From: Maribellus maritimus
GTDB taxonomy: Bacteria; Bacteroidota; Bacteroidia; Bacteroidales; Prolixibacteraceae
DNA: 64,000 nucleotides
Direction: 5' to 3'
NCBI RefSeq assembly: GCF_022267315.1
Contig: NZ_JAIKLE010000006.1
Location: 1-64,000 of the forward strand
Positions within the stretch are counted from its first letter, which is position 1. Every line of letters starts with the position of its first letter. A model generated the notes under the pieces. The model was not told where the DNA came from. It did no database searches and saw only the letters and a program-made list of their open reading frames with translations. This document shows positions 19,506 to 35,373 of the stretch, piece by piece. The translations under genes were made by a program, and so were the position numbers.

Positions 19506-19523
19506 TATTTTTTTACTTTAGCG
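19506..19523 (+). promoter_or_regulatory. Promoter-like element shared with 27779-27797
   Basis: The string TATTTTTTTACTTTAGCG precedes the small membrane-protein gene by about 27 bases and recurs, one T longer, upstream of its paralogue. TACTTTAG resembles the Bacteroidota -7 box (TAnnTTTG) at one mismatch. Spacing to the ATG is kept within one base at both loci. A functional promoter with co-regulation of the two heme sub-blocks is inferred. Confidence 0.6.
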
Positions 19524-19549
19524 TTTCGTAAAAACAGAATAAAAGCAAA

Positions 19550-19885
19550 ATGTTTACAATCGGTATTTTTTCTACACACATTCCCTACATCGCTTTTGTG
19601 CTGTTTTATGCCTATTTTTTTGTTTCAGGAGTTCAAAAAGCAGTTGACGGGGAAATTCCGCTTACTGATAAATGTGCATTTATTTCTGAAATTCAGGCTG
19701 AGCAGGATATCCTTAATCAAGATTCCTCAAACGATACATATAACTACAAAGCCTTTGTCGTTTCGGATTTTGAAAGATTTATTTTTAAACGAAAAATAAA
19801 ATACAGGATAAAAACCACCAAGTTTTTTCATTCTATTGCAATTTTTACTTCCCTTTTCGAGCGGCCGCCCCCCTTTGTTAGTTAA
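19550..19885 (+). CDS. Uncharacterised single-span membrane protein, heme cluster copy A
   Basis: A 111-residue protein with no family I recognise. Residues 1-37 (FTIGIFSTHIPYIAF, then FVLFYAYFFV) form one membrane span with a short N-terminal segment, followed by KAVxGEIP. The rest is polar, with a basic KRKIKY patch near 82-87 and a C-terminal RPPPFVS. A paralogue at 27823-28161 shares the first 25 residues exactly and the PPP tail. Across those 25 codons the two genes differ at ten codons, all synonymous, so the protein itself is conserved. It lies 98 bases before hemA and opens the heme cluster. Confidence 0.85.
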   Translation: MFTIGIFSTHIPYIAFVLFYAYFFVSGVQKAVDGEIPLTDKCAFISEIQAEQDILNQDSSNDTYNYKAFVVSDFERFIFKRKIKYRIKTTKFFHSIAIFTSLFERPPPFVS

Positions 19886-19983
19886 CTTTTCTTAAACAAA
19901 GAAAGGGATTTGTCGTTATCCCTAAATGATGATGACAATCTGGTTGATTTTCATTTTTAAACATTTACAAAATTAATTTTACA

Positions 19984-21261
19984 ATGATAGGCCTTGCAGG
20001 TATCAATCATAAAACTTCGCCGATTGAAATCAGGGAGCAGTTTTCGATCTCAAAGGAAGAAATCATACCTTTTTCAGAACTTCTTCAGGATGATACTGGT
20101 ATTTCCGACATAGTTGTACTATCCACTTGCAACAGAACGGAAATTTATTTTTCGCAGATGAAATACGATAATGTAACGGCATCTAAGTTGATTTACAGAA
20201 CGTTGAAGAAGTTTAAAGGGATTGAAAACAAATATTGGCATTTGTTTTACAATTACGGCAATTCGGAGGCGGTTCGGCATTTATTTGAAGTATCATCCGG
20301 AATTGATTCCATGATTATCGGTGAGGATCAAATTATCGGACAAATAAAGGAAGCCTACCAGTACTGCACCGATGCCGCTCTTACCGACGCTGTTCTGATG
20401 CGTTTGTTTCAAAAGTCGTTTGAAGCAGGCAAAAGGGTTCGTTCAGAGACTAAAATAAAAATGGGGACCACGTCAATCAGTAGTGCTGCGGTTCAGAAAT
20501 GTTTTCAACTGTACGACAGTCTGAATGATAAAAGGGTTTTGATGATTGGAGCCGGCGATACCGGAAGATTGGTACTGCAACATTTGAATAAGAGTGGTGT
20601 AAAAAGAATTACGGTGTCAAATCGTACCGAGGAGAAAGCAAAAAGACTGGCAGAACGGTACAGATGCGCAATGCTTCCTTTTGACCAAATGGGAAATCAT
20701 CTTTTTTTGTATGATATTATTATCGTTGCAACGGGGTCATCTGTTCCGCTGGTGACACGCGAGATGATTACTGACTCGCAGGAGAAAAGAGAAAATAAAC
20801 CACAGGTTTTTGTTGATATTTCGGTTCCCCGGAATATTGAGAAAAATGTTGAAGAAATGGAAAATATTCAGCTGTTTACTATTGATGCGTTGCAAAAAAC
20901 GGTAGATACAAATGTGGAGAAAAGGATGCATAGCGTTTCTTCGGCAAGGGAAATTATTGATGAAATTGTTGACGAATTTTCGGAATGGCTGTCAAGTCGC
21001 TCTTTACGTCCGGCGATAAAAATGATTACCGAAATAATGCAAAAAGTTTCAAACGAAGAGCTTTTGACTTATTATAAAGCAGATACCGAAGAAAAACAAC
21101 TGGCAATTAATGAATTCTCCACTCACCTGACTCAAAAATATACACGTCTTTTTATTAAAAACCTGAAAGAGATAACCGAGAACGGAAAGAATACTGAATC
21201 ATTACAAATCATAAATAAGTTGTTTAATTTTGTTTATGAACATGAAGAAATAGAGGAATGA
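19984..21261 (+). CDS. hemA: Glutamyl-tRNA reductase
   Basis: A 425-residue HemA, which reduces glutamyl-tRNA(Glu) to glutamate-1-semialdehyde with NADPH, the first step of C5-pathway tetrapyrrole synthesis. It opens with GLAGINHKTSPIEIRE; the catalytic Cys49 is in LSTCNRTEIY; SSGIDSMIIGEDQIIGQIKEAY is the family signature; GAGDTGRLVLQHL binds NADPH. The C-terminal dimerisation helices are present and the length is normal. The stop overlaps hemC (ATGA). Confidence 0.98.
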   Translation: MIGLAGINHKTSPIEIREQFSISKEEIIPFSELLQDDTGISDIVVLSTCNRTEIYFSQMKYDNVTASKLIYRTLKKFKGIENKYWHLFYNYGNSEAVRHLFEVSSGIDSMIIGEDQIIGQIKEAYQYCTDAALTDAVLMRLFQKSFEAGKRVRSETKIKMGTTSISSAAVQKCFQLYDSLNDKRVLMIGAGDTGRLVLQHLNKSGVKRITVSNRTEEKAKRLAERYRCAMLPFDQMGNHLFLYDIIIVATGSSVPLVTREMITDSQEKRENKPQVFVDISVPRNIEKNVEEMENIQLFTIDALQKTVDTNVEKRMHSVSSAREIIDEIVDEFSEWLSSRSLRPAIKMITEIMQKVSNEELLTYYKADTEEKQLAINEFSTHLTQKYTRLFIKNLKEITENGKNTESLQIINKLFNFVYEHEEIEE

Positions 21262-22184
21262 TTAAAAAAAGTATTCGGATTGGCACCCGTGGAAGTAAAC
21301 TCGCATTGTACCAGGCCAATCTTACAAAAAAAATATTATTGGAAACCTTTCCGAAAACCAATGTTGAAATTGTAATTATAAAAACAAAAGGAGACAAAAT
21401 TCTTGATGTTGCACTTTCAAAAATTGGTGATAAAGGATTATTTACAAAAGAAATTGAAACGGCACTGATTGACGGAGAGGTAGATATTGCCGTTCACAGT
21501 TTGAAAGATCTACCAACGAATCTTCCTGACGGACTTAAATTGGGGGCTGTTTTAAAACGTGCTGAATTTCGTGATGCATTAGTATCCAAAGACGGACGTA
21601 AATTAAACGAGCTTACTTCAGGCGATACCATTGCCACTTCCAGTTTGCGCAGAAAAGCAGGATTGCTGCGTATCAATAAAAATTTTAAAATTGTTGATAT
21701 CAGGGGAAACGTTGAAACCCGGTTGAAAAAAATGGAAGAGGGATACTGTGATGCCATGATTATGGCAGCCGCAGGTTTGCAACGCCTTGAACTTGATAAA
21801 TACATCACTGAAATTTTGGATCCGGAAGTTTTAATTCCGGCTACCAGTCAGGGAGTGATTGCCATTGAATCGAGAATTGATGACGCAGAAATTGATGCCT
21901 GTTTAAAAGAAATCAATCATGCAGAAACCTGGGACGCGATTCAGGTGGAAAGAAGCTTTCTTCATAGTATTGAAGGAGGTTGTCAGGTTCCCGTAGGTTG
22001 TTATACCAAAACTGAAGGTGAAACAATATCCATCATCGGTTTTGTTGCAGCGGTTGATGGCTCCGAATTCCTGCTCGGTAAAGAATCAGGACGGGTGGAC
22101 GAGGGCAAGGTTATAGGTGAAAAACTATCTAAAAAACTGATTGACAAGGGAGCCGCAAGAATATTGGCAAACATAAGGCGATAA
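21258..22184 (+). CDS. hemC: Hydroxymethylbilane synthase (porphobilinogen deaminase)
   Basis: A 308-residue HemC, which joins four porphobilinogens into hydroxymethylbilane. The start RIGTRGSKLALYQA is typical, catalytic Asp84 is in HSLKDLPT, the Arg-rich SSLRRKAGLLRI and DIRGNVETRL loops are present, and the dipyrromethane cofactor attaches to Cys242 in EGGCQVPVG. Overlaps at both ends (4 bases with hemA, 1 base with hemD) show a tightly coupled operon. Confidence 0.98.
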   Translation: MIKKSIRIGTRGSKLALYQANLTKKILLETFPKTNVEIVIIKTKGDKILDVALSKIGDKGLFTKEIETALIDGEVDIAVHSLKDLPTNLPDGLKLGAVLKRAEFRDALVSKDGRKLNELTSGDTIATSSLRRKAGLLRINKNFKIVDIRGNVETRLKKMEEGYCDAMIMAAAGLQRLELDKYITEILDPEVLIPATSQGVIAIESRIDDAEIDACLKEINHAETWDAIQVERSFLHSIEGGCQVPVGCYTKTEGETISIIGFVAAVDGSEFLLGKESGRVDEGKVIGEKLSKKLIDKGAARILANIRR

Positions 22185-22951
22185 TGAATCATCTGCTGAA
22201 AAATAAGCTGTTTATTTCTACACGGCCTAAAGGACAATCAGATGAGCTAAATCGTCTGTTAAAAGAAGCCGGTGCCGAAACAGTAGAAATGCCACTTATT
22301 GAGATTCGCCCTGCAAGTTTATCAGAAAAAGAGAATGATATTCTGGAACAACTGGAACAGTTTCAGTGGCTTGTTTTTACGAGTCCCAATGGTGTTCGGT
22401 ACTTTTTTGAGGTACTTGAAAAGAGAGGAATAGCAAATCTTCCCGAAAAGATTCAAATAGCAGTAATTGGCCAAAAAACAGAAGAAGAACTAAATTTTTT
22501 TGGTTATTCGCCTGCTTTTGTTAATCCCGGAAACACAGGCGAACACTTTGCTGCAGCATTATTGAAAAAAGTAGAAAACAATTCATGCCAGCCACGGATT
22601 TTGCTGACACTTGGTAATCTTGCACGTGCGGTTATTCAGGATGAATTAAGCAGGGTCGCAGCATGTATGCGGCTAAATGTGTATAAAACAGTAATCCCTG
22701 ATTTAACAGATGAAAAAACTGTTCAACTTATTAAAGACAACCGCTACGAAATGCTTATTTTCACCAGTCCGTCGGCTATTCAAAATTTTATGAAACGATT
22801 TAACGACATTTCCGCAAAAAATATTCGGCTTGCCTGTATTGGGGAAACCACAGCAAGCGAGGCACGAAAACAGGGTATTCAACCGTTGGTTGTAGCAAAA
22901 AATGCTTCGGCACAGGGAATCGTCGAATCAATAATTCAATATTATTCTTAA
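22184..22951 (+). CDS. hemD: Uroporphyrinogen-III synthase
   Basis: A 255-residue HemD, which cyclises hydroxymethylbilane with inversion of ring D. The family is weakly conserved in sequence; support comes from ISTRPKGQSDELNRLL at the start, WLVFTSPNGVRYFFE in the first domain, IFTSPSAIQNFM and ACIGETTASEARKQG in the second, plus its place between hemC and hemB. Length is normal for a stand-alone HemD. Confidence 0.94.
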   Translation: MNHLLKNKLFISTRPKGQSDELNRLLKEAGAETVEMPLIEIRPASLSEKENDILEQLEQFQWLVFTSPNGVRYFFEVLEKRGIANLPEKIQIAVIGQKTEEELNFFGYSPAFVNPGNTGEHFAAALLKKVENNSCQPRILLTLGNLARAVIQDELSRVAACMRLNVYKTVIPDLTDEKTVQLIKDNRYEMLIFTSPSAIQNFMKRFNDISAKNIRLACIGETTASEARKQGIQPLVVAKNASAQGIVESIIQYYS

Positions 22952-22969
22952 AACACAAAAATTACAGAT

Positions 22970-23938
22970 ATGCATTATCCGGTAACAAGACTTCGTCGTC
23001 TGCGCAGAAACGCTGCCTTAAGAGACATGGTACGCGAAACCATATTAACCCGTCACGATTTAATAATGCCTTTATTTGTTTGTCCGGGCAAAGGGGTTAA
23101 TAATCCTATTTCTTCCATGCCCGGCAACTCTCAGCTTTCGGTCGATTTTTTGGTTGAAAAAGGCAAAGAATTATTTGATCAGGGAGTACAATCAGTGTTG
23201 CTTTTTGGTATCCCGGAATCAAAAGATGAAACAGGAGAAGTAGCCTGTCAGCACAATGGTATTGTACAGCAAGCTACACGGGCGCTAAAAGAAGAAGTGC
23301 CTGATCTGTATCTGATTGCCGACATTTGCAACTGCGAATACACTACTCATGGTCATTGCGGAACCATTGTGGATGGCGATGTTGATAATGATCAGACCCT
23401 GGAGACCTTGGCTAAACAATCAGTTTCGCTTGCAGAAGCCGGAATTGATATGGTAGCACCCAGTGATATGATGGACGGTCGTGTGGGAGCAATCCGCACA
23501 GCACTCGATAACAACGGGTTTCACAACCTTCCCATCATGGCTTATTCAGCAAAATATGCATCAGCATTTTATGGTCCGTTTCGCGAGGCTGCTGAAAGTG
23601 CTCCGCAATTTGGCGACCGTAAAACTTACCAGATGGATCCCGCCAATGGTGATGAAGCACTTCGTGAGGTAGCCCTCGATATTCAGGAAGGAGCAGACAT
23701 TGTAATGGTGAAACCGGCCCTGAATTATATGGATATTATTCACCGTGTGAAAACCAGTTTTAATATGCCGGTTGCAGCTTATAATGTAAGTGGTGAGTTT
23801 TCCATGGTAAAAGCTGCGGCTGCAAAAGGATGGATTGATGAAAAACGAATTGTACACGAACTGCTTACCGGATTAAAACGTGCCGGAGCCGATTTGATTA
23901 TTTCCTACCATACGCAGGATATTATACAGGATTTATAA
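22970..23938 (+). CDS. hemB: Delta-aminolevulinic acid dehydratase (porphobilinogen synthase)
   Basis: A 322-residue HemB, which condenses two 5-aminolevulinates to porphobilinogen. It starts with [18 protein letters not shown]. The Schiff-base lysines are Lys195 ([16 protein letters not shown]) and Lys248 ([12 protein letters not shown]). Cys120, Cys122 and Cys130 ([14 protein letters not shown]) form the three-Cys catalytic zinc site, so this is the zinc-dependent rather than the Asp/Mg form. It follows hemD by 18 bases. Confidence 0.98.
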
Positions 23939-24009
23939 AAATTTACTTTCGTCATCCCGTGAATATTTTAGTTGTTCTTCGGGAGATGAGGTTTAAAAAT
24001 TTATTAGAA

Positions 24010-25305
24010 ATGACATACGAAAAAAGTATAGAAGCGTTTGCAGAAGCACAAAAACATATTCCCGGAGGAGTAAATTCGCCGGTGCGTTCTTTTAAAAGTG
24101 TAGGTGGAAATCCGCCTTTTATAGCCAGTGCCAAAGGTTCGAGGGTTACTGATATTGACGGGAATGAATATATTGATTATGTAGGCTCATGGGGACCTAT
24201 GATTTTAGGGCATTCGCATCCAAAAGTAGTGGAGGCAATTCAAAAAACTGCGGTTCTGGGAGCCAGTTTTGGCGCGCCCACATTGCTTGAAACAGAAATT
24301 GCCAAACAAATCAAAAAGATGGTTCCTTCCGTCGACAGTGTCCGAATGGTGAACTCGGGAACAGAAGCGACAATGAGTGCCTTGCGACTGGCCCGTGGTT
24401 ATACTAACCGCGATTTGGTTATTAAATTTGAAGGATGTTACCATGGTCATAACGACAGTTTTCTGATTGAAGCCGGTTCGGGTGCCCTCACGTTTGGTGT
24501 GCCCAACACACCGGGTGTTACCAGAGGAACTGCACATGATACACTTACGGCTAAGTTTAATGATCTTGCCTCGGTACAACGTTTATTTGAAGAAAATAAA
24601 GGAAAAATTGCTGCTGTAATTCTGGAACCGATTACCGGAAATATGGGCGTAATTGTTCCTGATGAAGAATTTATTAAAGGAGTAAGAAATCTGTGCGACG
24701 AAAATCAGACCGTATTGATTTTTGATGAGGTGATGACCGGATTCCGGGTGGCCAAAGGTTGTGCACAGGAAGTACTTGGTATAAAGCCTGATTTAACCAC
24801 TTTTGGAAAAATTATCGGTGGTGGCTTGCCGGTAGGTGCCTATGGTGGCAAACAAGAAATTATGGAAATGCTGGCGCCGCAGGGCCCTGTTTATCAGGCA
24901 GGAACATTGTCGGGAAATCCATTGGCAATGGCGGCAGGTTTAACCACTTTACGTTTACTCGACCAGGCTCAGGATTTTTATGAAGATCTTGAAAAATCTT
25001 CGGCTTTGCTGGAGGAAGGCCTTCAGAATAATTTGAAAGAGTTAAAGTTTAAAGGTGTAATCAACAGAGTGGGCTCTATGTTTACGTTGTTTTTTACAGA
25101 AGAGGAAAGTGTAAAATCCTTGTCCGATGTAAATAAATGTGATACATCGTTGTTTGCACGTTATTTTAAAATTTCACTTGATAGCGGCATTTATCTCGCA
25201 CCTTCACAATATGAAGCCGGATTTGTTTCAGCAGCGCATACCAATGAAGACATTCGGAAAACGATAGAAGCAAGTTATAGTGCATTAAAGCAACTTAAGG
25301 GGTAA
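24010..25305 (+). CDS. hemL: Glutamate-1-semialdehyde 2,1-aminomutase
   Basis: A 431-residue HemL from the ATG at 24010 ([20 protein letters not shown], the usual N-terminus); an in-frame GTG at 23959 would add 17 non-homologous residues. It converts glutamate-1-semialdehyde to 5-aminolevulinate with PLP or PMP; the PLP lysine is Lys267 in [18 protein letters not shown], and [18 protein letters not shown] is the conserved phosphate-binding part. Together with HemA it supplies ALA by the C5 route. Confidence 0.97.
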
Positions 25306-25308
25306 AAT

Positions 25309-26355
25309 ATGGATAACAAAACAGAACCAATATTATTACAAACGCTTAGGGGAAAAGCAACTTCACGGCCACCCTTTTGGTTTATGCGTCAGGCTGGACG
25401 GGTTTTGCCCAACTATTTAAAGTTGAAGGAAAATTATACTTTCTGGCAAATGATGCAAAATCCAAAAGTTGCAGCCGAAGTTACTTTAATGCCGGTATAC
25501 GATCTGGGTGTGGATGCCGCCATTTTGTTCAGTGATATTCTGGTGATTCCTTATGCACTGGGAATGGGACTTGATTTTACAGATGCCGGACCTGTTTTTG
25601 AAAAGCCGCTGGCACAGCGAAGTAATCCTTTGGAAGGTTTGAATCCTGATCCCTCGAAACTTGAATATATTTACAAAGTTGTTGATGAAATCATAAAAAC
25701 GCGGCCGGAGAATACGCCCTTGATTGGTTTTTGTGGCGCGCCACTTACGGTATTGTTGTTTATGTTGCAGGGATTGGGACGAAAAGGTGATTTTCCGGAT
25801 GCTGTAAAATTTATCTACCAAAATAAAGAAGCCACAAAAAAGCTGGTGGAAGAACTCACTGAGCTGTCGGTTATTTATGCACAGGAACAAATCAACCATG
25901 GAGTGGAAGTGTTTCAGTTGTTCGACACACACGCCGGTTTGATTCCTTTCGATTTGTACAAAGAGCTGTTTTTACCGGCAACAGAAAAAATAGCTGAAGC
26001 AGTACGCGCGAAAGATGTACCTTTTATTTTCTTCCCCAAAGGACTCGGATGTGGTATTGGAGCCATCACACCGGAATACTGCGATTTTCTGAGTATTGAC
26101 TGGCAAACGTCGCTACAAACTGCGCGTAAACTGGTGCATCAGGAGGTAGGTTTACAAGGTAATATTGATCCACGTTTGTTATTTGCCCCTCAGCAGGAAA
26201 TGGAAAAAACACTGGAAAGCTACATTGAGTTTGGTCGCAAAAATCAAAACTGGATTTTTAACCTTGGGCACGGGTTTATTCCGGGTCTGCCCTACGAAAA
26301 TGCCAAGTTCCTCGCCGACTGGGTGAAAAATACAGACTGGAAACGAAACAGCTGA
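25309..26355 (+). CDS. hemE: Uroporphyrinogen decarboxylase
   Basis: A 348-residue HemE, which removes four carboxyl groups from uroporphyrinogen III to give coproporphyrinogen III. The diagnostic N-terminal PPFWFMRQAGRVLPNY is present, then ILFSDILVIPYALG with the catalytic Asp, GFCGAPLTVLLFML, and the C-terminal GLQGNIDPRLLFAP and NLGHGFIPGLPYENAK. It starts three bases after the hemL stop. Confidence 0.98.
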   Translation: MDNKTEPILLQTLRGKATSRPPFWFMRQAGRVLPNYLKLKENYTFWQMMQNPKVAAEVTLMPVYDLGVDAAILFSDILVIPYALGMGLDFTDAGPVFEKPLAQRSNPLEGLNPDPSKLEYIYKVVDEIIKTRPENTPLIGFCGAPLTVLLFMLQGLGRKGDFPDAVKFIYQNKEATKKLVEELTELSVIYAQEQINHGVEVFQLFDTHAGLIPFDLYKELFLPATEKIAEAVRAKDVPFIFFPKGLGCGIGAITPEYCDFLSIDWQTSLQTARKLVHQEVGLQGNIDPRLLFAPQQEMEKTLESYIEFGRKNQNWIFNLGHGFIPGLPYENAKFLADWVKNTDWKRNS

Positions 26356-26472
26356 TTTTTGCTTTTTTTAAGAAACAATACTACCTGAGGACTGTTAAGT
26401 ACAACGTTGTTTCGTATGTATTTCAGAAAATACAGACAAGGAAACATTGTGAAACAGACAAAACAGTTTACT

Positions 26473-26787
26473 ATGTTACATCGGTTTAAGGAAAAATGGA
26501 ATATAAAATCTAATTTTCAGCTTATTGTTATTCTTTTTGTTTTCTCGATCACCGGGAGCGCTGCACTCGTTGTACGGAAATTTATATTTCACCTTGTAGG
26601 CATTCAACAAGATACTTCCCTACTGATTAAAGTTCCGCTTTATTTAATCGTTTTAATACCCAGTTACCAGCTTTTGCTGTTGGTTATAGGAACATTATTG
26701 GGTCAGTATCGGTTTTTTCTGGCATATGAAAAGAAAACCGTTGGGCGTTTAATTAAGAGAAGTAAAAAAAGCCATGAAAAAAATTGA
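26473..26787 (+). CDS. Small two-span membrane protein (DUF6787-like)
   Basis: A 104-residue protein if it starts at the ATG at 26473 (MLHRFKEKWNI); the frame is open back to 26407. Two hydrophobic spans are separated by a short loop (about 16-40 and 52-80). KEKWxIxSNFQLIVILFVFSITGS and the charged tail resemble small Bacteroidota DUF6787-type proteins. It overlaps hemF by 14 bases, so it belongs to the heme operon. Function is not known. Confidence 0.7.
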   Translation: MLHRFKEKWNIKSNFQLIVILFVFSITGSAALVVRKFIFHLVGIQQDTSLLIKVPLYLIVLIPSYQLLLLVIGTLLGQYRFFLAYEKKTVGRLIKRSKKSHEKN

Positions 26788-27676
26788 CAAAATTGCCGCC
26801 ACATATTCTGAACTCCAAAAAAAAATGTGTCAGATTTTGGAATCCGCTGACGATGGAGGAAAGTTTAACTCCATTCCCTGGAAAAAAGAGATTGGTGGAG
26901 GAGAATCTCAATTGATGGAAGACGGTAAAATTATTGAAAAAGGAGCAGTTAATTTTTCCTTTGTGAGGGGAAAATTTTCGCCCGGGATGGAGCAGTTGCT
27001 GGGCGAAAAAGCCGGAGAATATGCGGCGACCGGAATTTCTTCTATTTTGCATCCGCAGAATCCCGGGGTGCCTGTTATTCATATGAATGTACGCTACTTT
27101 GCACTTGACAACGGCGTTTCCTGGTTTGGAGGAGGAATTGATTTGACACCTCATATTATTCATCCCGAAGATGCCGTCTCTTTTCATCGCACATTAAAAG
27201 AAATTTGCGACCGCTACGACCATAAATTTTACCCCGACTTTAAAAAATGGGCCGATGATTATTTCTTCCTTCCACACCGCAATGAAACAAGAGGTATTGG
27301 CGGTATTTTTTTTGATCGTTTAAAACCCGGAGAACAAAATAGTTTCGAAAGTCTGCTAAATTTTACCATCGACCTCGCTAATGTTTACCCTGAAATTTAT
27401 GCTGGATTTATGCGTAAGTACGGCTCTAAACCTTTTTCCGAAAGGGAAAAAAAATGGCAAAATTTGCGCAGGGGGAGGTATGTGGAGTTTAATCTGATTT
27501 ATGATCGCGGAACCAGGTTCGGCCTTGAATCGGGAGGAAATGCTGAATCTATTTTGGCCAGTCTCCCCGCCGATGCTTCCTGGAAAACCAATTATATTCC
27601 TCCAAAGGATGGTTTTGAAGAAAACACACTTCATTTGTTAAGAAAAAATATCGACTGGATTAATTTTACTGCGTAA
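26774..27676 (+). CDS. hemF: Oxygen-dependent coproporphyrinogen-III oxidase
   Basis: A 300-residue HemF, which converts coproporphyrinogen III to protoporphyrinogen IX with O2. Signature pieces are HPQNPGVPVIHMNVRYF, WFGGGIDLTPHI, FYPDFKKWADDYFFLPHRNE, RGIGGIFFDR and GRYVEFNLIYDRGTRFGLESGG. Length is normal. The cluster also holds oxygen-independent hemN, so both versions of this step are available. Confidence 0.98.
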   Translation: MKKIDKIAATYSELQKKMCQILESADDGGKFNSIPWKKEIGGGESQLMEDGKIIEKGAVNFSFVRGKFSPGMEQLLGEKAGEYAATGISSILHPQNPGVPVIHMNVRYFALDNGVSWFGGGIDLTPHIIHPEDAVSFHRTLKEICDRYDHKFYPDFKKWADDYFFLPHRNETRGIGGIFFDRLKPGEQNSFESLLNFTIDLANVYPEIYAGFMRKYGSKPFSEREKKWQNLRRGRYVEFNLIYDRGTRFGLESGGNAESILASLPADASWKTNYIPPKDGFEENTLHLLRKNIDWINFTA

Positions 27677-27778
27677 TAATGTTCTTTTATGAACAATTGA
27701 TTTAAATCAATCCGCATGTTGTTTTATTTTGTATTTAAAATATGCGCAATAACATATAAAGAGAAAATTATAAAAAGG

Positions 27779-27797
27779 TATTTTTTTTACTTTAGCG
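27779..27797 (+). promoter_or_regulatory. Promoter-like element shared with 19506-19523
   Basis: TATTTTTTTTACTTTAGCG lies about 25 bases upstream of the second small membrane-protein gene, matching the element before its paralogue apart from one extra T. The neighbouring sequence outside this core is different, so the match stands out. A GAGGAGA run just before the ATG is a Shine-Dalgarno-like site, which is unusual for this phylum and absent at copy A. Confidence 0.6.
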
Positions 27798-27822
27798 CAT
27801 TCAAATCCGGAATAAGAGGAGA

Positions 27823-28161
27823 ATGTTTACAATAGGAATTTTTTCTACACATATACCTTACATTGCTTTTGTACTTTTTTATGCCTACTTTTTTGTAGCA
27901 GGAATAAATAAAGCTGTCTCAGGAGAAATTCCTTCCGGAGAGGATTTTCACAAAACAGAGATTTACGCCTCAGATAATTTTATGGATCAGGATATTGATA
28001 CGTATCATTATTTCTGTAAGGAATCTGATTTTTGCAAAACATTTAAAGATGAAGATTCTCTTCTCAAACGAAAGATAAATTATCCGGAGTATTCTTTAGC
28101 AAAAATTGCAATTGAATATTATTTAATTCATTTCAACAAGCCTCCTCCGGTTTTAGTTTGA
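27823..28161 (+). CDS. Uncharacterised single-span membrane protein, heme cluster copy B
   Basis: A 112-residue paralogue of the protein at 19550-19885, identical to it at 33 of the first 37 residues. After the membrane span the sequences diverge strongly, with conserved landmarks KAVxGEIP, a basic LKRKINY patch, an IAI stretch and the C-terminal KPPPVLV. The middle is acidic and holds two Cys (C67 and C74 region) absent from copy A. It sits between hemF and the TonB receptor gene and opens the second half of the heme cluster. A regulatory or complex-anchoring role is a guess. Confidence 0.85.
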   Translation: MFTIGIFSTHIPYIAFVLFYAYFFVAGINKAVSGEIPSGEDFHKTEIYASDNFMDQDIDTYHYFCKESDFCKTFKDEDSLLKRKINYPEYSLAKIAIEYYLIHFNKPPPVLV

Positions 28162-28224: not shown

Positions 28225-30327
28225 ATGAAAAAGATAATACTATCCATAGTAATCTATTCTCTTTTTACCGCTTTTGCACAAGCACAGAATTTGAGAGTTA
28301 TAACAGATACAACTAATACCCCTGATATTTTAATTGACGAGATCACTGTAAAATCACCTAAGGAATTACCATTAGTAAGAGAAATTCCTACATCTATATC
28401 GTTACTACCAGCAAGGAAATTAGAGAACGATGAGATTCATTCATTGACAGATATTTCTTCCAAAGTACCCAACTTTTTTATGCTCGATTACGGTTCAAAA
28501 CTACAATCTTCTGTATTTGTTCGCGGAATTGGCTCAAGGCTTGGTTCTCCTTCTGTTGGACTATATGTAGATAATGTTCCTTATTTTGAAAAAACTACAT
28601 TTGGGTTTGATTTTTTTGATATTGAACGTGTTGAAGTTTTGAGAGGACCTCAGGGAACTTTATATGGCCGAAATACTATGGGTGGTATTATTAATGTATT
28701 TAGCAAGTCTCCGCTTGTATACGATGAAACAAATATTTCAGTAACCGCTGGTACCCACGGTTATTACAATGTAAATGTGAACCATTATAACAGAGTAGAT
28801 GACAAATTTGGTTATTCAATAAGCGGAAATTATTTGAATCAAAACGGTTACTTTACCAATAATTTTTCGGGAGATCCTGCGGATGATAAATATTCAGCAA
28901 GTGGGAGAGCAAGGTTGGTTTGGAGAATTTCTGATAACTTAATGCTTGAAAATACCGCGAATTATGAAAAAAGTGAACAATATGGATTCCCTTACGCTTT
29001 GTATAACGACTCAACTAATCGCGCTGTTGGGATAAGCTATGATCAGGAAAGTTCCTATAAAAGGGATCTTTTTTCTGACGGACTTGTCTTAAAATATCAG
29101 AATGATGTTTTCCAATTTGTTTCAACATCCAGTTATCAGTTTTACGACGGGTTGATGGCTGTTGACCAGGATTTCACCAAAAACAAAATATACTTTTTTG
29201 AAATAGGAGACAGACAAAACATGGTTTCGCAGGAACTGATGTTAAAGTCATTGTCACCGTCGAAATACAAGTGGCTTTTTGGTGCGTATGGATTTTATCA
29301 GACGATGAAACAGCAAACGCAAGGCGATATTTATACTTCAAAAGTTAATCAGGATATTCGAAGTGATTTTAATATATCCGGATATGCATTGTTTCACCAG
29401 TCGACCTTCGATGATTTTCTTGTGGAAAATTTATCGCTAACTGCAGGAATAAGATTTGACGTTGAAAAAGATGACTTGGATTATACGTTCGACCAGGCAG
29501 TTGGAGATAACCCGGTATCCAATCTTGCAACTGAAGATTATTCAGAAAATTTTACGGAAATACTGCCTAAAGTTGCGTTGAAATATGCTTTTAACAACTC
29601 GTTAAATACCTATGCAACAGTTTCCAAAGGATATAAATCAGGTGGTTTTAATACGAACACCTCGATCGTTCTGGAAGAAGATCGCTCTTTTGACTCAGAA
29701 AAGAGTTGGAATTATGAGTTGGGTTTAAAATCTTCTTTAGCCGGCAACCGCTTATTTGTTGACGCTGCTTTGTTTTATATCGATTGGCAGGACCAACAAA
29801 TTGATGTTCCCGTACCAGGTGGCCGTGGTAATATGAAAAAAAATGCAGGTGAATCGGTTAGCAAGGGAGCCGAGCTTTTTGTAAAAGGGTTACTGGCTGA
29901 TAATCTGGAAGCAACGCTGGGATATGGTTATACCCATGCTACTTTTGCCGACTACGTGGTTTCAGAAGAGCTTAATTATAATGATAACTTTATACCTTAT
30001 GTCCCCAGGCATACCATAAATGCAAGCTTGTACAAGACATTCGAATTTAAAAATGGATTTTTGGAGAAATTAATTGCAAATTTAAGCTATAAAGGAGTAG
30101 GAAAACATTATTGGTCGCTTGATAATTCAGTTTACCAGGACTATTACGGGCTTCTTGATGCGAAGTTATCTTTTGTAACCGGAAAATTTCGTTTTGAAAT
30201 TTGGGGAAAGAATATTTTTGATACTTCCTATAATACTTACTATTTTGAAATTTCGTCTTTACACAATTCCTATGTCCAAATGGGCAAACCGGCAAGTTTG
30301 GGTGTAAATTTGAAAGTAGCTTTTTAA
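28225..30327 (+). CDS. TonB-dependent outer-membrane receptor (iron/heme type)
   Basis: A 700-residue receptor with a signal peptide ending in AFAQAQ, a plug (PTSISLLPARKLE, FVRGIGSRLGSPSVGLYVDN, RVEVLRGPQGTLYGRNTMGG) and a 22-strand barrel ending in GVNLKVAF with terminal Phe. It lacks the CarboxypepD_reg domain of SusC proteins, so it is of the siderophore/heme class. Its place between hem genes and next to an MFS permease suggests uptake of heme, a porphyrin or an iron chelate; the ligand is unknown. Confidence 0.92.
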   Translation: MKKIILSIVIYSLFTAFAQAQNLRVITDTTNTPDILIDEITVKSPKELPLVREIPTSISLLPARKLENDEIHSLTDISSKVPNFFMLDYGSKLQSSVFVRGIGSRLGSPSVGLYVDNVPYFEKTTFGFDFFDIERVEVLRGPQGTLYGRNTMGGIINVFSKSPLVYDETNISVTAGTHGYYNVNVNHYNRVDDKFGYSISGNYLNQNGYFTNNFSGDPADDKYSASGRARLVWRISDNLMLENTANYEKSEQYGFPYALYNDSTNRAVGISYDQESSYKRDLFSDGLVLKYQNDVFQFVSTSSYQFYDGLMAVDQDFTKNKIYFFEIGDRQNMVSQELMLKSLSPSKYKWLFGAYGFYQTMKQQTQGDIYTSKVNQDIRSDFNISGYALFHQSTFDDFLVENLSLTAGIRFDVEKDDLDYTFDQAVGDNPVSNLATEDYSENFTEILPKVALKYAFNNSLNTYATVSKGYKSGGFNTNTSIVLEEDRSFDSEKSWNYELGLKSSLAGNRLFVDAALFYIDWQDQQIDVPVPGGRGNMKKNAGESVSKGAELFVKGLLADNLEATLGYGYTHATFADYVVSEELNYNDNFIPYVPRHTINASLYKTFEFKNGFLEKLIANLSYKGVGKHYWSLDNSVYQDYYGLLDAKLSFVTGKFRFEIWGKNIFDTSYNTYYFEISSLHNSYVQMGKPASLGVNLKVAF

Positions 30328-30338
30328 TTGAATAAAAA

Positions 30339-31601
30339 ATGGGAAAAAAAGAAATCAATAAGTACTTTACGCTGCTGAGTCTTTATCTGGCGCAATCGAT
30401 TCCGATGAGTTTTTTCTCCACAGTGATTCCCGTAATCATGCGAATGGAAAATTATTCACTCGAATCCATCGGTTACCTTCAACTCATAAAATTACCCTGG
30501 ATAGTTAAATTTTTGTGGGCTCCGATTGTCGACAGGACGAGTCACTCCTCAAAAAGGTACCGGCGCTGGATATTGTCTTCGGAACTGTTTTATGCGGCTA
30601 TAATAGTTTCCATTGGTTTTTTTGATTTGCAGACCGATTTTTCCACAATAATTATTTTAATGGTAATTGCCTTTACAGCATCGGCCACACAAGACATCGC
30701 TACCGATGCTTTTGCCATTCTTGTATTAAAAGAAAAGGAAAGAAGTATCGGAAACAGCATGCAGTCGGCCGGTAGCTTTATCGGAACATTAGTGGGGAGT
30801 GGCGTTTTGTTAATTATCTATCACTACAGGGGGTGGATGCCGTTGCTGCACTGTCTTGGTGTGTTTGTTTTGATTTCTCTAATTCCGGTGATGTTTTTTA
30901 AAAATCATAGCAAAAAAGAAATTGATAAGTCAAGAAAAAACATCTCACCTCTGGAGTTTGTATATTTTTTTAAACAAAAAAGAATTGGCGGACACATTTT
31001 ATTGCTTTTCCTGTTTTACGCCGGAATAATTGGCATTTTAACCATGATAAAGCCCTATCTGGTTGATTTGGGCTACGAAGTAAAAAGAATAGGTTTTATT
31101 TCCGGTATTTTTGGAACAGCTTGCGGCGCGTTAATGACCATCCCGGCAGGGATATTTATCCGAAAAAAAGGAGTATTACGTTCTGTGTGGGTTTTTCCTG
31201 TTTTGAATGTGATGGTGGCCGTTTATTTTATTTTTCTTACCTACACGAATCATCAGTTGTATTTGATTTATATTGGAGTTGCGTTGCTTTGGAGTGCTTA
31301 TGCAATGTCTTCGGTTTTTGTGTATACACTCGGAATGCAGGTGGTTAGAAAAGGAAGAGAAGGAACAGATTTTACCATCCAGATTGTAGTTACTCATTTA
31401 AGCAGTCTGGTTATAGCCATATTAAGCGGAAAAATAGCCGACACGATAGATTATCGTGGGCTTTTTGCTATTGAATTAGGAATTGGATTATTAATTTTGA
31501 TCCTGTTGCCGTTTTTATTTAGAAAAGAATTCTATAATACTGAGGAACGTTGTCCCGTTATAGAAGCCGGGGCTGAATTTCCTGACAAAACAATAAATTA
31601 A
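30339..31601 (+). CDS. MFS permease, AmpG/RhtX/FptX-like
   Basis: A 420-residue transporter with about 12 membrane spans. SIPMSFFSTVIPVIMR, KLPWIVKFLWAPIVDR and ASATQDIATDAFAILVL are the motif set of the AmpG/RhtX branch, which moves muropeptides or siderophores across the inner membrane. It starts 11 bases after the TonB receptor, so the two probably move the same compound across the outer and inner membranes. Iron-chelate or tetrapyrrole import is the inference. Confidence 0.85.
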   Translation: MGKKEINKYFTLLSLYLAQSIPMSFFSTVIPVIMRMENYSLESIGYLQLIKLPWIVKFLWAPIVDRTSHSSKRYRRWILSSELFYAAIIVSIGFFDLQTDFSTIIILMVIAFTASATQDIATDAFAILVLKEKERSIGNSMQSAGSFIGTLVGSGVLLIIYHYRGWMPLLHCLGVFVLISLIPVMFFKNHSKKEIDKSRKNISPLEFVYFFKQKRIGGHILLLFLFYAGIIGILTMIKPYLVDLGYEVKRIGFISGIFGTACGALMTIPAGIFIRKKGVLRSVWVFPVLNVMVAVYFIFLTYTNHQLYLIYIGVALLWSAYAMSSVFVYTLGMQVVRKGREGTDFTIQIVVTHLSSLVIAILSGKIADTIDYRGLFAIELGIGLLILILLPFLFRKEFYNTEERCPVIEAGAEFPDKTIN

Positions 31602-31611
31602 TACAAATCGA

Positions 31612-32988
31612 ATGAAGATTCCGAAAAATCTGATAGATAAATATAATGTGCCGGTACCGAGATATACCAGTTATCCACCGGCTAATTTCTTTTCAACAGA
31701 ATTTGATAATAAGGAATATATCCGGGCAATTGAGTTTTCAAATAACGAATGGCCCGAGAATATTTCGATTTATTTACACATTCCGTTTTGCCCCAAAATT
31801 TGTTACTACTGCGGATGTAATACACATTTAACACGCGATAAAGATAAAATGCGGGTGTATGTTGAAGCATTAAAAAAAGAGATTTTGATGGTGAAAAAGT
31901 ACCTTTCATCAAACCGGAAAGTGGCGCAGGTACATTGGGGTGGAGGTACACCAAATTCTTTGCCTGTTGAAATGATGGAAGAAATTATGGGTGTGTTGCA
32001 CTCTAATTTTTCATTTATTACGAACCCCGAAATTGCAATGGAATGTCACCCCGCTATGCTCGATTCTGCCTATATTGATGCGTTGGTAAAAAGTGGGTTT
32101 AACCGAATGAGTTTGGGGATACAGGATTTTAATCTGAAGGTACTTGAGAATGTAAATCGGGATCCTTCTGAAATTCCGGTTGAAGAACTTGTTCAACTTA
32201 TTCGCAGTCGCGGAGATATTGGCGTAAATCTTGATTTTATTTACGGTTTGCCCTATCAGGATGTAAAATCATTTTCAGAAACAATAGAACAGGCAGTTAA
32301 AATTTCGCCCGATCGTTTGGTGACATTTTCATATGCACACGTACCGTGGATTAAAAAAGCACAGAAAATCCTTGAAGTTCGCGGACTTCCTGAAGCCGAT
32401 GAAAAATTGGCCATGTTTGAAGCTGCTTATAAAATTCTAACACAAAATGGATATAAACCCATCGGCCTCGATCATTATGCAAAAGCTGATGATGAGTTAA
32501 ATATTGCACTTGAGAACAGAACTTTACACCGGAATTTTCAGGGCTACTGCACTCGTGAAACAACCGGACAGGTTTATGCGTTTGGAGCTACAGGAATTAG
32601 TCAGTTGGAAAGCGCTTATGCACAAAATGCAAAAGACACCAACAAGTACGTAGAACAAATTGAAAGTGGGAATTTTTTTATTGAAAAAGGCTATAAACTA
32701 AATAAAAGGGAGAAGATAATAAAACATGTCATAAACGAAATCATGTGTAATTACTATCTTTCATGGAAAGAGGCCGCTCAAAAATTTGAAGTTTCAGAAG
32801 ATGAGTTGAAAAACGTTGTTGAATTAAAGGATAGCAACTTAGATAGTTTTGCGGAAGACGGGCTTTTAAATTTTAACCCGGATGAAATTGCGGTAACTGA
32901 TTCAGGAAGATTTTTTGTTCGAAATATTGCTGCAAGCTTAGACCCCAATCTAAAGAATGCGGCGCAGAAATTTTCAAAATCGTTGTAA
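31612..32988 (+). CDS. hemN: Oxygen-independent coproporphyrinogen III oxidase (radical SAM)
   Basis: A 458-residue HemN. The start VPRYTSYPPANFFS is typical, and the radical SAM cluster Cys60, Cys64 and Cys67 lie in HIPFCPKICYYCGCN. HWGGGTPNSLP and GVNLDFIYGLPYQ follow, then RMSLGIQDF. It makes protoporphyrinogen IX without oxygen and complements HemF in anoxia. It directly precedes the protoporphyrinogen oxidase gene with one base between stop and start. Confidence 0.96.
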   Translation: MKIPKNLIDKYNVPVPRYTSYPPANFFSTEFDNKEYIRAIEFSNNEWPENISIYLHIPFCPKICYYCGCNTHLTRDKDKMRVYVEALKKEILMVKKYLSSNRKVAQVHWGGGTPNSLPVEMMEEIMGVLHSNFSFITNPEIAMECHPAMLDSAYIDALVKSGFNRMSLGIQDFNLKVLENVNRDPSEIPVEELVQLIRSRGDIGVNLDFIYGLPYQDVKSFSETIEQAVKISPDRLVTFSYAHVPWIKKAQKILEVRGLPEADEKLAMFEAAYKILTQNGYKPIGLDHYAKADDELNIALENRTLHRNFQGYCTRETTGQVYAFGATGISQLESAYAQNAKDTNKYVEQIESGNFFIEKGYKLNKREKIIKHVINEIMCNYYLSWKEAAQKFEVSEDELKNVVELKDSNLDSFAEDGLLNFNPDEIAVTDSGRFFVRNIAASLDPNLKNAAQKFSKSL

Positions 32989-32989
32989 A

Positions 32990-34354
32990 ATGAGCGAAAA
33001 TAAAATTCAGAAAGTAGCTGTTGTAGGCGCGGGATTAACCGGATTAACTACCGCCTATTATTTAAAAAAAGCAGGCATCGGTGTTCAGGTTTTTGAAAAA
33101 GCAGATCGCGCCGGAGGTGTTATCAAAACATACAACAAAGATGGTTTTACATTTGAAGCCGGACCAAATACAGGTGTTCTCGGACAACCTGAAGCAACAG
33201 AATTACTTGAAAATTTGCACGGCGACTGTGAACTGGAAATCGCCGATGAAGCAGCAAAAGCCCGGTGGATTTGGAAGTCCGGTAAATGGGAACCTCTTCC
33301 TTCTGGATTAATTGGCGGGATAACAACACCTTTGTTTACATTTGCCGACAAGTTGCGGTTATTGGGTGAACCCTTCAGAAAAAGGGGAACAAATCCGAAC
33401 GAAACATTAAAAGAATTGGTGCTTCGCCGTATGGGAAAAAGTTTTCTTGATTATGCTGTTGATCCGTTTATCCTGGGAATTTATTCCGGCGATCCGGCGA
33501 AGCTGGTTCCAAAGTATGCTTTGCCCAAATTATACAGATTGGAGCAGGACTACGGAAGTTTTATCGGGGGCACTGTAAAAAAAGCTCGTCAACCCAAAAC
33601 CGATTGGGAAAAAAAAGCTACAAGAGAAATATTTTCAGTAAAGGGTGGTTTGGAAAACTTGATAAAAGCATTGGTAAAAAATGTCGGGAAGGATAACATC
33701 GTCTTTAATTGTGATTCTATTTCTTTTGAAAAAACAGAAAAAGGATACAAAGTAAACAACCGAAATGAAGTATTTTCAAACGTAATCTCAACGGTTGGTG
33801 CTTATGAATTAAGCCATCTTTTTCCGTTTGCCGACATTGAAAAAATAATTCAGATAAATCAGTTGGAGTATGCCAAAGTAGTTCAGGTTTCATTAGGTTT
33901 TAGAGAGTGGAAAGGAGTTGATTTAAAATCATTTGGAGGGTTAGTACCATTTAAAGAAAACAGGGATTTGCTTGGAGCGCTTTTTTTATCTTCTTTTTTA
34001 AAAAACAGGGCGCCTCAAAACGGAGCGTTACTTTCAACATTTCTGGGGGGTATAAGAAAACCTGAAATGGTTGAACTGAATGACGGTCAAATTGTTGATA
34101 TCGTCAAAAAGGAAATAGTAGAAATGATGGGCTTGAAACAGTTTGACCCTGATATGCTGAAAATTTTTCGTTATCAGCATGCCATTCCGCAATATGGAAT
34201 TGAATCGGAACAAAAGCTAAAAGCAATCGACCAGCTGGAAAAAATGAATCCGGGATTGATTTTGGCGGGAAATATACGTGACGGAATTGGAATGGCCGAC
34301 CGAATTAAACAGGGAAAAATGTTGGCAACTCAGATAATCAGTCAAAGTAAATGA
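32990..34354 (+). CDS. hemY: FAD-dependent protoporphyrinogen oxidase (HemY type)
   Basis: A 454-residue flavoprotein from the ATG at 32990. The FAD motif VAVVGAGLTGLTTAYYL is at residues 9-25, then VFEKADRAGGVIKT and EAGPNTGVLG. The C-terminal part has LAGNIRDGIGMADRIKQG, close to the AGN...G....C/A signature of the family. It oxidises protoporphyrinogen IX using O2 and is called hemG in some schemes; it is not the flavodoxin-like HemG of E. coli. The next gene overlaps it by 4 bases. Confidence 0.95.
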   Translation: MSENKIQKVAVVGAGLTGLTTAYYLKKAGIGVQVFEKADRAGGVIKTYNKDGFTFEAGPNTGVLGQPEATELLENLHGDCELEIADEAAKARWIWKSGKWEPLPSGLIGGITTPLFTFADKLRLLGEPFRKRGTNPNETLKELVLRRMGKSFLDYAVDPFILGIYSGDPAKLVPKYALPKLYRLEQDYGSFIGGTVKKARQPKTDWEKKATREIFSVKGGLENLIKALVKNVGKDNIVFNCDSISFEKTEKGYKVNNRNEVFSNVISTVGAYELSHLFPFADIEKIIQINQLEYAKVVQVSLGFREWKGVDLKSFGGLVPFKENRDLLGALFLSSFLKNRAPQNGALLSTFLGGIRKPEMVELNDGQIVDIVKKEIVEMMGLKQFDPDMLKIFRYQHAIPQYGIESEQKLKAIDQLEKMNPGLILAGNIRDGIGMADRIKQGKMLATQIISQSK

Positions 34355-35373
34355 AAAAAGGAAAAACAGCTGTATTATTGATGAATGTTGGAAGTCCCGA
34401 TGAACCAACAGTTCCTGCTGTACGGAAATATCTTACTGAATTTTTGAATGATAAAAGGGTAATCGACCTTCCGTGGTTGTTGAGAAAATTTTTAGTAAAT
34501 GTGATTATTATTCCTTTCCGTGTAAAAAATTCAACGGGATTATACAAGCAGCTTTGGACAAAAAAAGGGTCTCCGTTAATTTATTATTCTGAAGAATTAA
34601 AACAAAAACTACAGGTACAACTCGGAAGTTTATTTGAAGTTTTTGTTGGAATGCGTTACGGAAATCCGAGTTATAAAAAGGCACTTTCAGAAATAAAAAA
34701 GAAAGGCTTTGAGAAAATTGTTTTGGTTCCGCTTTACCCGCAGCATGCGATGTCGACTACAGAAACTTCTTTGGTTGCGGCTGAAAAGGAGATAAAAGAA
34801 CAGGGAATTCATGCCGAAATATTTGAGGTTGAACAGTTCTACGACAACCCGAAATTTGTCGATGCTTTTGCTGAACAAGTACGAAAATATAATTTATCCG
34901 ATTTTGACCATATCATTTTTTCGTATCACGGCCTTCCTAACCGTCATGTTGAAAAATGCCACCCGGGGATTAAAGTGGAAAACTGTTCCTGCAGAAATGC
35001 TCTTCCGGAACATGGAAAATTTTGTTATCATGCTACTTCTTACGAAACTACGCGACTAATTGCTTCAAAACTCAATCTGAAAGAGTCAGATTATACCGTT
35101 AGTTTTCAATCGAGGTTGTCAAACAATTGGCTTACTCCGTTTACTGATGCTGTTTTGCAGGAGAAACTGGAGGAAGGGAAGAAGAATATATTGGTTTTGG
35201 CGCCTTCGTTTGTTACGGATTGTTTGGAAACCATTCTGGAAATTGGTGTGGAATATGGCGAGGAGTTTAAGCAAAAAGGAGGGAATAAAGTTCAATTGGT
35301 GGAAAGTTTAAATACCGGTGATAGATGGGTGGAAATTCTTGCGGAGATGGTTATTTCGCAACTGAACACTTAA
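34351..35373 (+). CDS. hemH: Ferrochelatase
   Basis: A 340-residue HemH, which inserts Fe(II) into protoporphyrin IX. The N-terminus LLMNVGSPDEP, GMRYGNPS, LVPLYPQHAMSTTETS, FSYHGLP with catalytic His193, and FVTDCLETILEIGVEY with Glu293 are all present. Four Cys lie at 203, 212, 214 and 225 (EKCHPG, ENCSCRN, KFCYH), a pattern compatible with an internal [2Fe-2S] cluster as known in some bacterial ferrochelatases; that assignment is inference. The gene overlaps hemY by ATGA. Confidence 0.97.
   Translation: MKKGKTAVLLMNVGSPDEPTVPAVRKYLTEFLNDKRVIDLPWLLRKFLVNVIIIPFRVKNSTGLYKQLWTKKGSPLIYYSEELKQKLQVQLGSLFEVFVGMRYGNPSYKKALSEIKKKGFEKIVLVPLYPQHAMSTTETSLVAAEKEIKEQGIHAEIFEVEQFYDNPKFVDAFAEQVRKYNLSDFDHIIFSYHGLPNRHVEKCHPGIKVENCSCRNALPEHGKFCYHATSYETTRLIASKLNLKESDYTVSFQSRLSNNWLTPFTDAVLQEKLEEGKKNILVLAPSFVTDCLETILEIGVEYGEEFKQKGGNKVQLVESLNTGDRWVEILAEMVISQLNT

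Follow-up and report, generated by a model that had tools for sequence, protein, structure and literature searches.

The control systems closest to the one proposed here are upstream open reading frames (uORFs) that encode arrest peptides. CruR, a DUF2946 uORF in front of the TonB receptor gene bfrG of Bordetella pertussis, carries RAPP near its C-terminus and exerts copper control over the receptor via arrest and Rho: without copper, arrest blocks Rho and the operon stays on (PMC9426467), and the arrest has been demonstrated (PMC12992588). A RAPP-like motif close to the C-terminus of a small exported protein is reported to mark an arrest-peptide uORF (PMC12992588, PMC10987492), small uORFs with RAPP or RGPP are over-represented ahead of TonB-receptor genes in Gram-negatives (PMC12992588), and XPPP motifs stall ribosomes, with RPPP ranking first in an in vitro comparison, KPPP in the strong group, and relief by elongation factor P (PMC4176338). 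Caution comes from a report that most RAPP-like motifs in E. coli and B. subtilis proteins gave no arrest alone (PMC10987492). CutF is another example of such control, although the proline motif of CutF alone gave no stall in a LepB assay (PMC9973294). We investigated twin small open reading frames (ORFs), leader 1 and leader 2, each standing at the start of one half of a heme gene cluster in a 64,000-nt stretch of Maribellus maritimus DNA (the window). Sequence similarity places them in a family that occurs across a single bacterial order. We consider it likely that they are cis-acting leaders that control, through nascent-chain arrest, operons for heme synthesis and for porphyrin/heme uptake, and the response is probably to heme or a porphyrin.

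The two leaders resemble SecM, ApdA/ApdP and the RQH family of arrest uORFs in their N-terminal targeting, their RxPP-like C-terminal motif and their uORF position, and two members of the family carry RGPP itself, as in the RAPP/RGPP arrest uORFs. They differ from CruR in having no DUF2946 match and no CXXC, in ending with RPPP or KPPP rather than RAPP, in placing a predicted membrane span at residues 11–32, and in standing before heme rather than copper genes; from CutF they differ in having neither its conserved Cys/His metal motif nor an excess of intergenic stem-loops. Arrest-leader control is a known kind of regulation (copper uptake, protein export); what looks new is this family, with its RPPP form and its setting among heme genes. 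The 2025 survey of such uORFs (PMC12992588) covered RAPP/RGPP, not RPPP, and heme goes unmentioned in its main text; the main text of the CutF paper (PMC9973294) names neither porphyrin nor hemA, and has "heme" in a reference only. Among the matches listed in searches of open-licence literature, and in the main texts of the papers cited here, we found no heme- or porphyrin-responsive arrest peptide and no heme leader.

The initial annotation, made from the sequence alone, had described the twins as proteins of about 112 residues. Both ORFs are real (111 and 112 residues), and its account of their resemblance holds: 33 of 37 N-terminal residues are identical, 10 of the first 25 codons differ with all 10 differences synonymous, and both C-termini consist of (R/K)PPP plus three residues (RPPPFVS in leader 1, KPPPVLV in leader 2). 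Neither leader matched a Pfam or NCBIfam family above cut-off, leader 2 giving only a below-cut-off match to DUF3796. The gap from the stop of leader 1 to hemA is 98 nt, and that from leader 2 to the gene of a TonB-dependent receptor is 63 nt.

Members of the family were gathered by sequence similarity, not by genomic context, in searches with P0002 against 61 genomes and later with a profile from 51 diverse members, a family hidden Markov model (HMM) being built from A1/A2. This yielded 84 distinct proteins (69, plus 15 added later) after dropping members sharing identical last 60 residues; many of the 84 are closely related, and 53 are left below 60% identity. The first downstream genes were classed by BLAST against the window and Hmu proteins. 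A downstream gene is visible in 81 of the 84 members, the other three (L200, L203, L213) reaching the end of their contig, or almost so, or being followed by no long ORF, and in all 81 it is a heme/porphyrin gene or encodes a TonB-dependent receptor. The leader lies directly upstream of the first operon gene, on the same strand and 12–431 nt away where measured, in three operon types: hemA operons (20/81), operons of a receptor followed by a major facilitator superfamily (MFS) transporter, mostly with hemN/hemG (49/81; 47 by script, the window copy, and L212, in which the script skipped the receptor for overlap), and HmuR/HmuY-type operons (6/81). In the last type, an HmuY-like gene stands beside the receptor behind five members (L128, L136, L147, L148, L208) and an HmuR-like receptor stands alone behind one (L209); PF14064 was confirmed in all three HmuY genes scanned (L128, L136, L148), the call for L208 being by BLAST and that for L147 by size and place. 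We know of no leader in hmu operons as described. The remaining six members precede a receptor and an oxidase (L118), a receptor, a small ORF and an MFS gene (L206), hemN (L117), an MFS gene (L063) and other receptors (L207, L210). The heme linkage proposed in the initial annotation is thus strongly supported by the gene neighbourhoods, and widespread homologues without hem linkage, named beforehand as the refuting outcome, did not occur.

Members are about 112 residues long, with a conserved N-terminal span (MFxxGIFxTHxPY), a middle for which no fold is predicted and a C-terminal FxRPPP. In an alignment of 51 rows, M1, G5 and one proline of the motif are invariant, and F2, F7, P12, Y13, Y20 and the R-P-P of the motif reach 90% or more. 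The structure predicted for leader 2 has a single helix at residues 11–32 (predicted local distance difference test, pLDDT, about 90) and no secondary structure outside it (pLDDT about 54–78); the predicted helix and the hydrophobic N-terminus of the alignment point to a membrane-targeting segment. An R-x-P-P-like motif lies near the stop throughout the family (RPPP in 75 of the 84 members, RPPT in three, KPPP and RGPP in two each, KAPP and NPPP in one each), just 2/84 having the strict RAPP/RGPP form. The distance from motif to stop is 2–10 residues (2–3 residues in 69/84), and F, Y or W occupies position −2 from the motif in 69/84. Because members that match the profile only N-terminally keep motif-type endings (KAPP in G132, RPPP in G352 and G068, RGPP in G219 and G116), the end motif is no mere product of the profile. 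In the genome of the window, RPPP or SPPP followed by two or three residues and a stop occurs at 15 places (KPPP was not searched), fewer than the 20 and 19 places of the reversed control, and leader 1 alone of the 15 has a gene of at least 100 residues in frame. Aromatic and His residues cluster 42–46 residues before the motif (33–46% at 42–45 and 17% at 46, in the 53 diverse members). Given the length of the ribosome tunnel, a chain paused at the motif would emerge about 42–46 residues earlier.

The protein occurs more often than chance would give: the profile of 51 members detected it in 30 of the 37 same-genus genomes; of the seven without it, G018 gives only a chance-level partial match. 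In most same-genus genomes there is one copy, so that the two-copy arrangement suggested in the initial annotation is not general. In the order sample, 30 of 393 genomes match the first profile at E ≤ 0.01 and 47 match the second at E ≤ 0.005, the 47 including at least one false match (G084, L211, among the weakest) and one unreadable as an ORF in the stretch used (G310, L214). In the class sample (395 genomes), nothing credible was found beyond the window's own copies, the other matches being weak, partial or in large frames, and chance-like. In genome contigs, 28 loci were identified, from Draconibacterium, Maribellus, Mariniphaga, Tangfeifania, and uncultured Prolixibacteraceae or other Bacteroidota. 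Within the genus, the leader goes with the pathway: all 30 leader-bearing genomes have hemA and/or the oxidase gene, and none of the seven leader-less genomes has hemA; five of these also have no oxidase gene, and G018 and G021 have it, but their contigs end short of the leader's expected place.

A divergent amidohydrolase gene adjoins the leader in 26 of 29 same-genus stretches (L033–L061), and at this one locus the leader is followed by hemA-C-D-B-L-E in some genomes (L039, L043) and by receptor-MFS-hemN-hemG in most, the window and G031 having both operons in series. Mariniphaga species carry hemA here and have the receptor operon at another place, with a separate leader for each (L097/L107, L099/L119). 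Members linked to hemA and to receptors interleave in the tree, with 11 changes, of which branches with good support require at least two (e.g., L098 with L102); the tree is weak (good support for 12 of its 50 inner branches, several branches very long) and was used for interleaving only. Since the locus stays the same while the operons are exchanged, the leader appears to behave like a reusable cassette.

We propose that the small genes serve as leaders, each for the operon that follows it. The N-terminal span would bring the nascent chain to the inner membrane, and with the ribosome at FxRPPP (or KPPP/RGPP) just before the stop, translation would be arrested or slowed, for a time set by a signal that the chain already outside would sense through the GIFxTHxPY span and perhaps through the aromatic/His cluster 42–46 residues upstream. 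Heme or a porphyrin, located in the membrane or at it, would be the most likely signal. Where the arrested ribosome stands would decide the expression of heme synthesis from hemA, porphyrin salvage by receptor-MFS-hemN-hemG, or HmuY/HmuR uptake; by analogy with CruR, arrest under scarcity might keep the operon on. The analysis establishes the family, its anatomy, the position of the motif and the linkage; we infer arrest, signal, sign and coupling, and the ligand and the direction of control are guesses by context. A shared stall function is the simplest reading because RPPP is swapped for RGPP, KAPP or RPPT in place, and because of a protein in G041 (L232:1538-1933), a transmembrane protein missed by the family HMM, which has RGPPLG as its last residues and lies 55 nt ahead of a receptor-MFS-hemN-hemG operon. 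How Bacteroidota control heme is, to our knowledge, poorly understood. We suggest only tentatively that these are the first heme- or porphyrin-sensing arrest peptides, in which the nascent span reads the tetrapyrrole and one cassette is reused for synthesis, salvage and HmuY-type uptake. If this is true, the same sensor has been moved between operons, a nascent chain sets heme synthesis and uptake across a whole order, and a tetrapyrrole cofactor joins metals and export among the things that arrest peptides sense. The family lends itself to a test, since a single genome has natural copies in front of two opposing strategies, making heme and importing it.

Several results weigh against arrest-leader control. 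The leader is not obligatory, because it is absent from several of the order's hemA operons and from the separate hemA in the nine same-genus genomes looked at; of 14 hemA starts (L215–L226, L229, L230), none has a family member upstream within the stretch covered. Across 24 non-independent close pairs, the ratio of nonsynonymous to synonymous substitution rates (dN/dS) is equal in the N-terminal 36 codons (0.145) and the middle (0.148) and not lower in the last 12 codons (0.211). Selection thus acts on the full length of the protein among close relatives, the middle included, though the middle diverges at longer distances. The N-terminal span is conserved beyond the needs of a mere targeting signal, and CXXC, the sensing motif of CruR, occurs in 3/84 members and in neither window copy. 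Finally, 56 intergenic regions behind leaders are no more structured than 89 controls (mean z = −1.35 vs. −1.38, P = 0.42), and coupling through a CutF-like stem-loop is therefore unsupported.

The strongly conserved span, the purifying selection along the whole length and the genome-level co-occurrence with heme genes would suit a stable inner-membrane protein acting in trans, as a heme/porphyrin sensor, a carrier or a partner in transport or synthesis, with the proline motif as a binding tail. We regard this as unlikely, given a position 12–431 nt before the first gene in three operon types, a motif pinned to the stop with no fold predicted past the span, and replacements of RPPP (RGPP, KAPP, RPPT) that share stall chemistry and form no obvious binding motif. 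Of the functions offered in the initial annotation, whose heme link stands, the "heme sensor" option fits best. Neither an anchor that holds a tetrapyrrole enzyme complex at the membrane nor a HemA-stability factor fits well, because uptake operons, rather than hemA, follow most members, no fold is predicted past the span, and a stall-type motif is pinned to the stop.

Arrest leaders that respond to something other than a tetrapyrrole were also weighed. An iron or copper sensor of the CruR/CutF kind strikes us as improbable: Cys lies ahead of RPPP in many members, Cys/His residues and the TonB-receptor context would agree with it, and CutF-like proteins are numerous in Bacteroidota (PMC9973294), but DUF2946 is not matched, CXXC is rare, the Cys ahead of the motif is absent from both window copies, and the neighbours are tetrapyrrole genes and HmuY, not copper genes. 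There is a somewhat slimmer chance that the leaders are plain pause or translational-coupling leaders without a ligand, or unimportant conserved ORFs riding with the promoter. Duplication alone could explain the 79% DNA identity of the promoter and 5′ ends, but this reading sits badly with codon changes that are all synonymous in the first 25 codons and with the order-wide conservation of both protein ends. We consider it very improbable that arrest senses membrane insertion instead of heme, as in a Sec/YidC-type export monitor that tunes export of the outer-membrane receptor. An N-terminal span with an RxPP end is the reported anatomy of such arrest peptides (PMC10987492), but secA, secDF or yidC is the first downstream gene in none of the 81 visible members, as classed by BLAST against the window and Hmu proteins, and 20 members precede hemA, whose product is not exported.

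The features of the cluster in the window are collected in Table 1. The names of hemC, hemD, hemB, hemL, hemE and hemF are presumed from gene order, unlike those of hemA and the DUF6787 gene, which were scanned. The DUF6787 protein lies within the heme operon (26407–26787), between hemE and hemF, and similar genes occur in the hem operons of some relatives.

Table 1 Coordinates of leader, operon and promoter-like features in the window
Feature	Coordinates	Strand	Remark
Promoter-like element, copy 1	19506..19523	+	T-run followed by TACTTTAGCG
Leader ORF 1	19550..19885	+	111 aa; before the hemA operon
Membrane-span helix of leader 1	19580..19645	+	Codons 11-32; same residues as in the leader 2 model
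RPPP codons of leader 1	19862..19873	+	Stall-type motif, 3 residues ahead of the stop
hemA-hemC-hemD-hemB-hemL-hemE-DUF6787-hemF	19984..27676	+	Behind leader 1; hemA over the TIGR01035 cut-off
Promoter-like element, copy 2	27780..27797	+	Ahead of leader ORF 2
Leader ORF 2	27823..28161	+	112 aa; before the receptor operon
Membrane-span helix of leader 2	27853..27918	+	Codons 11-32; predicted structure
KPPP codons of leader 2	28138..28149	+	Stall-type motif, 3 residues ahead of the stop
TonB-dependent receptor	28225..30327	+	Behind leader 2
MFS transporter	30339..31601	+	RhtX/FptX-like, under that model's cut-off
hemN, oxygen-independent coproporphyrinogen III oxidase	31612..32988	+	Over cut-off
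hemG/hemY-type protoporphyrinogen oxidase	32957..34354	+	Over the TIGR00562 cut-off
Probable ferrochelatase (hemH)	34351..35373	+	Resembles the L061 protein, which matches PF00762

Five same-genus genomes (G015, G022, G023, G033 and G035; L036, L035, L044, L042 and L034) have no hemA match and keep a receptor-(MFS-hemN-)protoporphyrinogen oxidase operon, which suggests import of porphyrin or porphyrinogen and salvage through the late steps. In Draconibacterium aestuarii (G007), the locus (L057/L117) has no receptor or MFS genes; its leader stands 209 nt before hemN, and eight residues follow its RPPP, above the usual number. The separate hemA loci (L215, L217 and others) hold a second type of hemA, about 40% identical to that of the window and without a leader; in the nine same-genus genomes, these genes stand, in those read, behind a pair resembling a response regulator and a histidine kinase.

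The initial annotation also reported a shared promoter-like element before both ATGs and took co-regulation to be possible. The element is present twice, but the 19-mer quoted is exact at copy 2 only, copy 1 being one T shorter (TA, seven T and ACTTTAGCG, with eight T in copy 2); about 25–26 nt separate its end from the ATG in both copies. Without mismatch, the 15-mer TTTTTTTACTTTAGC occurs in the 7.33-Mb genome at just the two window sites; one mismatch adds five further sites, and the reversed control pattern gives 11 matches at the same setting. TAnnTTTG is the promoter core usual in Bacteroidota (a −7-type core). A core of this type lies within 80 nt of the start in 22 of the 53 diverse members, compared with 4.2 in shuffles. 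The candidate special promoter therefore reduces to an ordinary-looking −7-type core also present in orthologues, and the element is no evidence for a special co-regulatory site.

The 5′ ends of the twins form a direct repeat of 130 nt with 79% DNA identity (19530–19659 and 27803–27932, 8273 nt apart). The repeats bracket hemA–hemF, and recombination between them would leave a receptor-only layout, as in most relatives; the twin copies could in this way permit the loss of one operon.

The intergenic regions behind the leaders were also compared by folding and composition. A conserved hairpin that was convincing by eye was rejected, as its z-scores equal those of control regions. C-over-G composition, which goes with Rho attenuation in CruR, was compared too: C exceeds G in the coding sequence of 95% of 56 leaders and in 27% of 162 heme-gene ends, but proline codons contribute to the difference, and the intergenic regions show a slight excess (C − G = +0.027 vs. 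−0.001 in 89 controls, P = 0.004). CCTG occurs in 29 of the 56 intergenic regions and in 22 of the 89 controls, and CCTGTT in 11 and 2, respectively.

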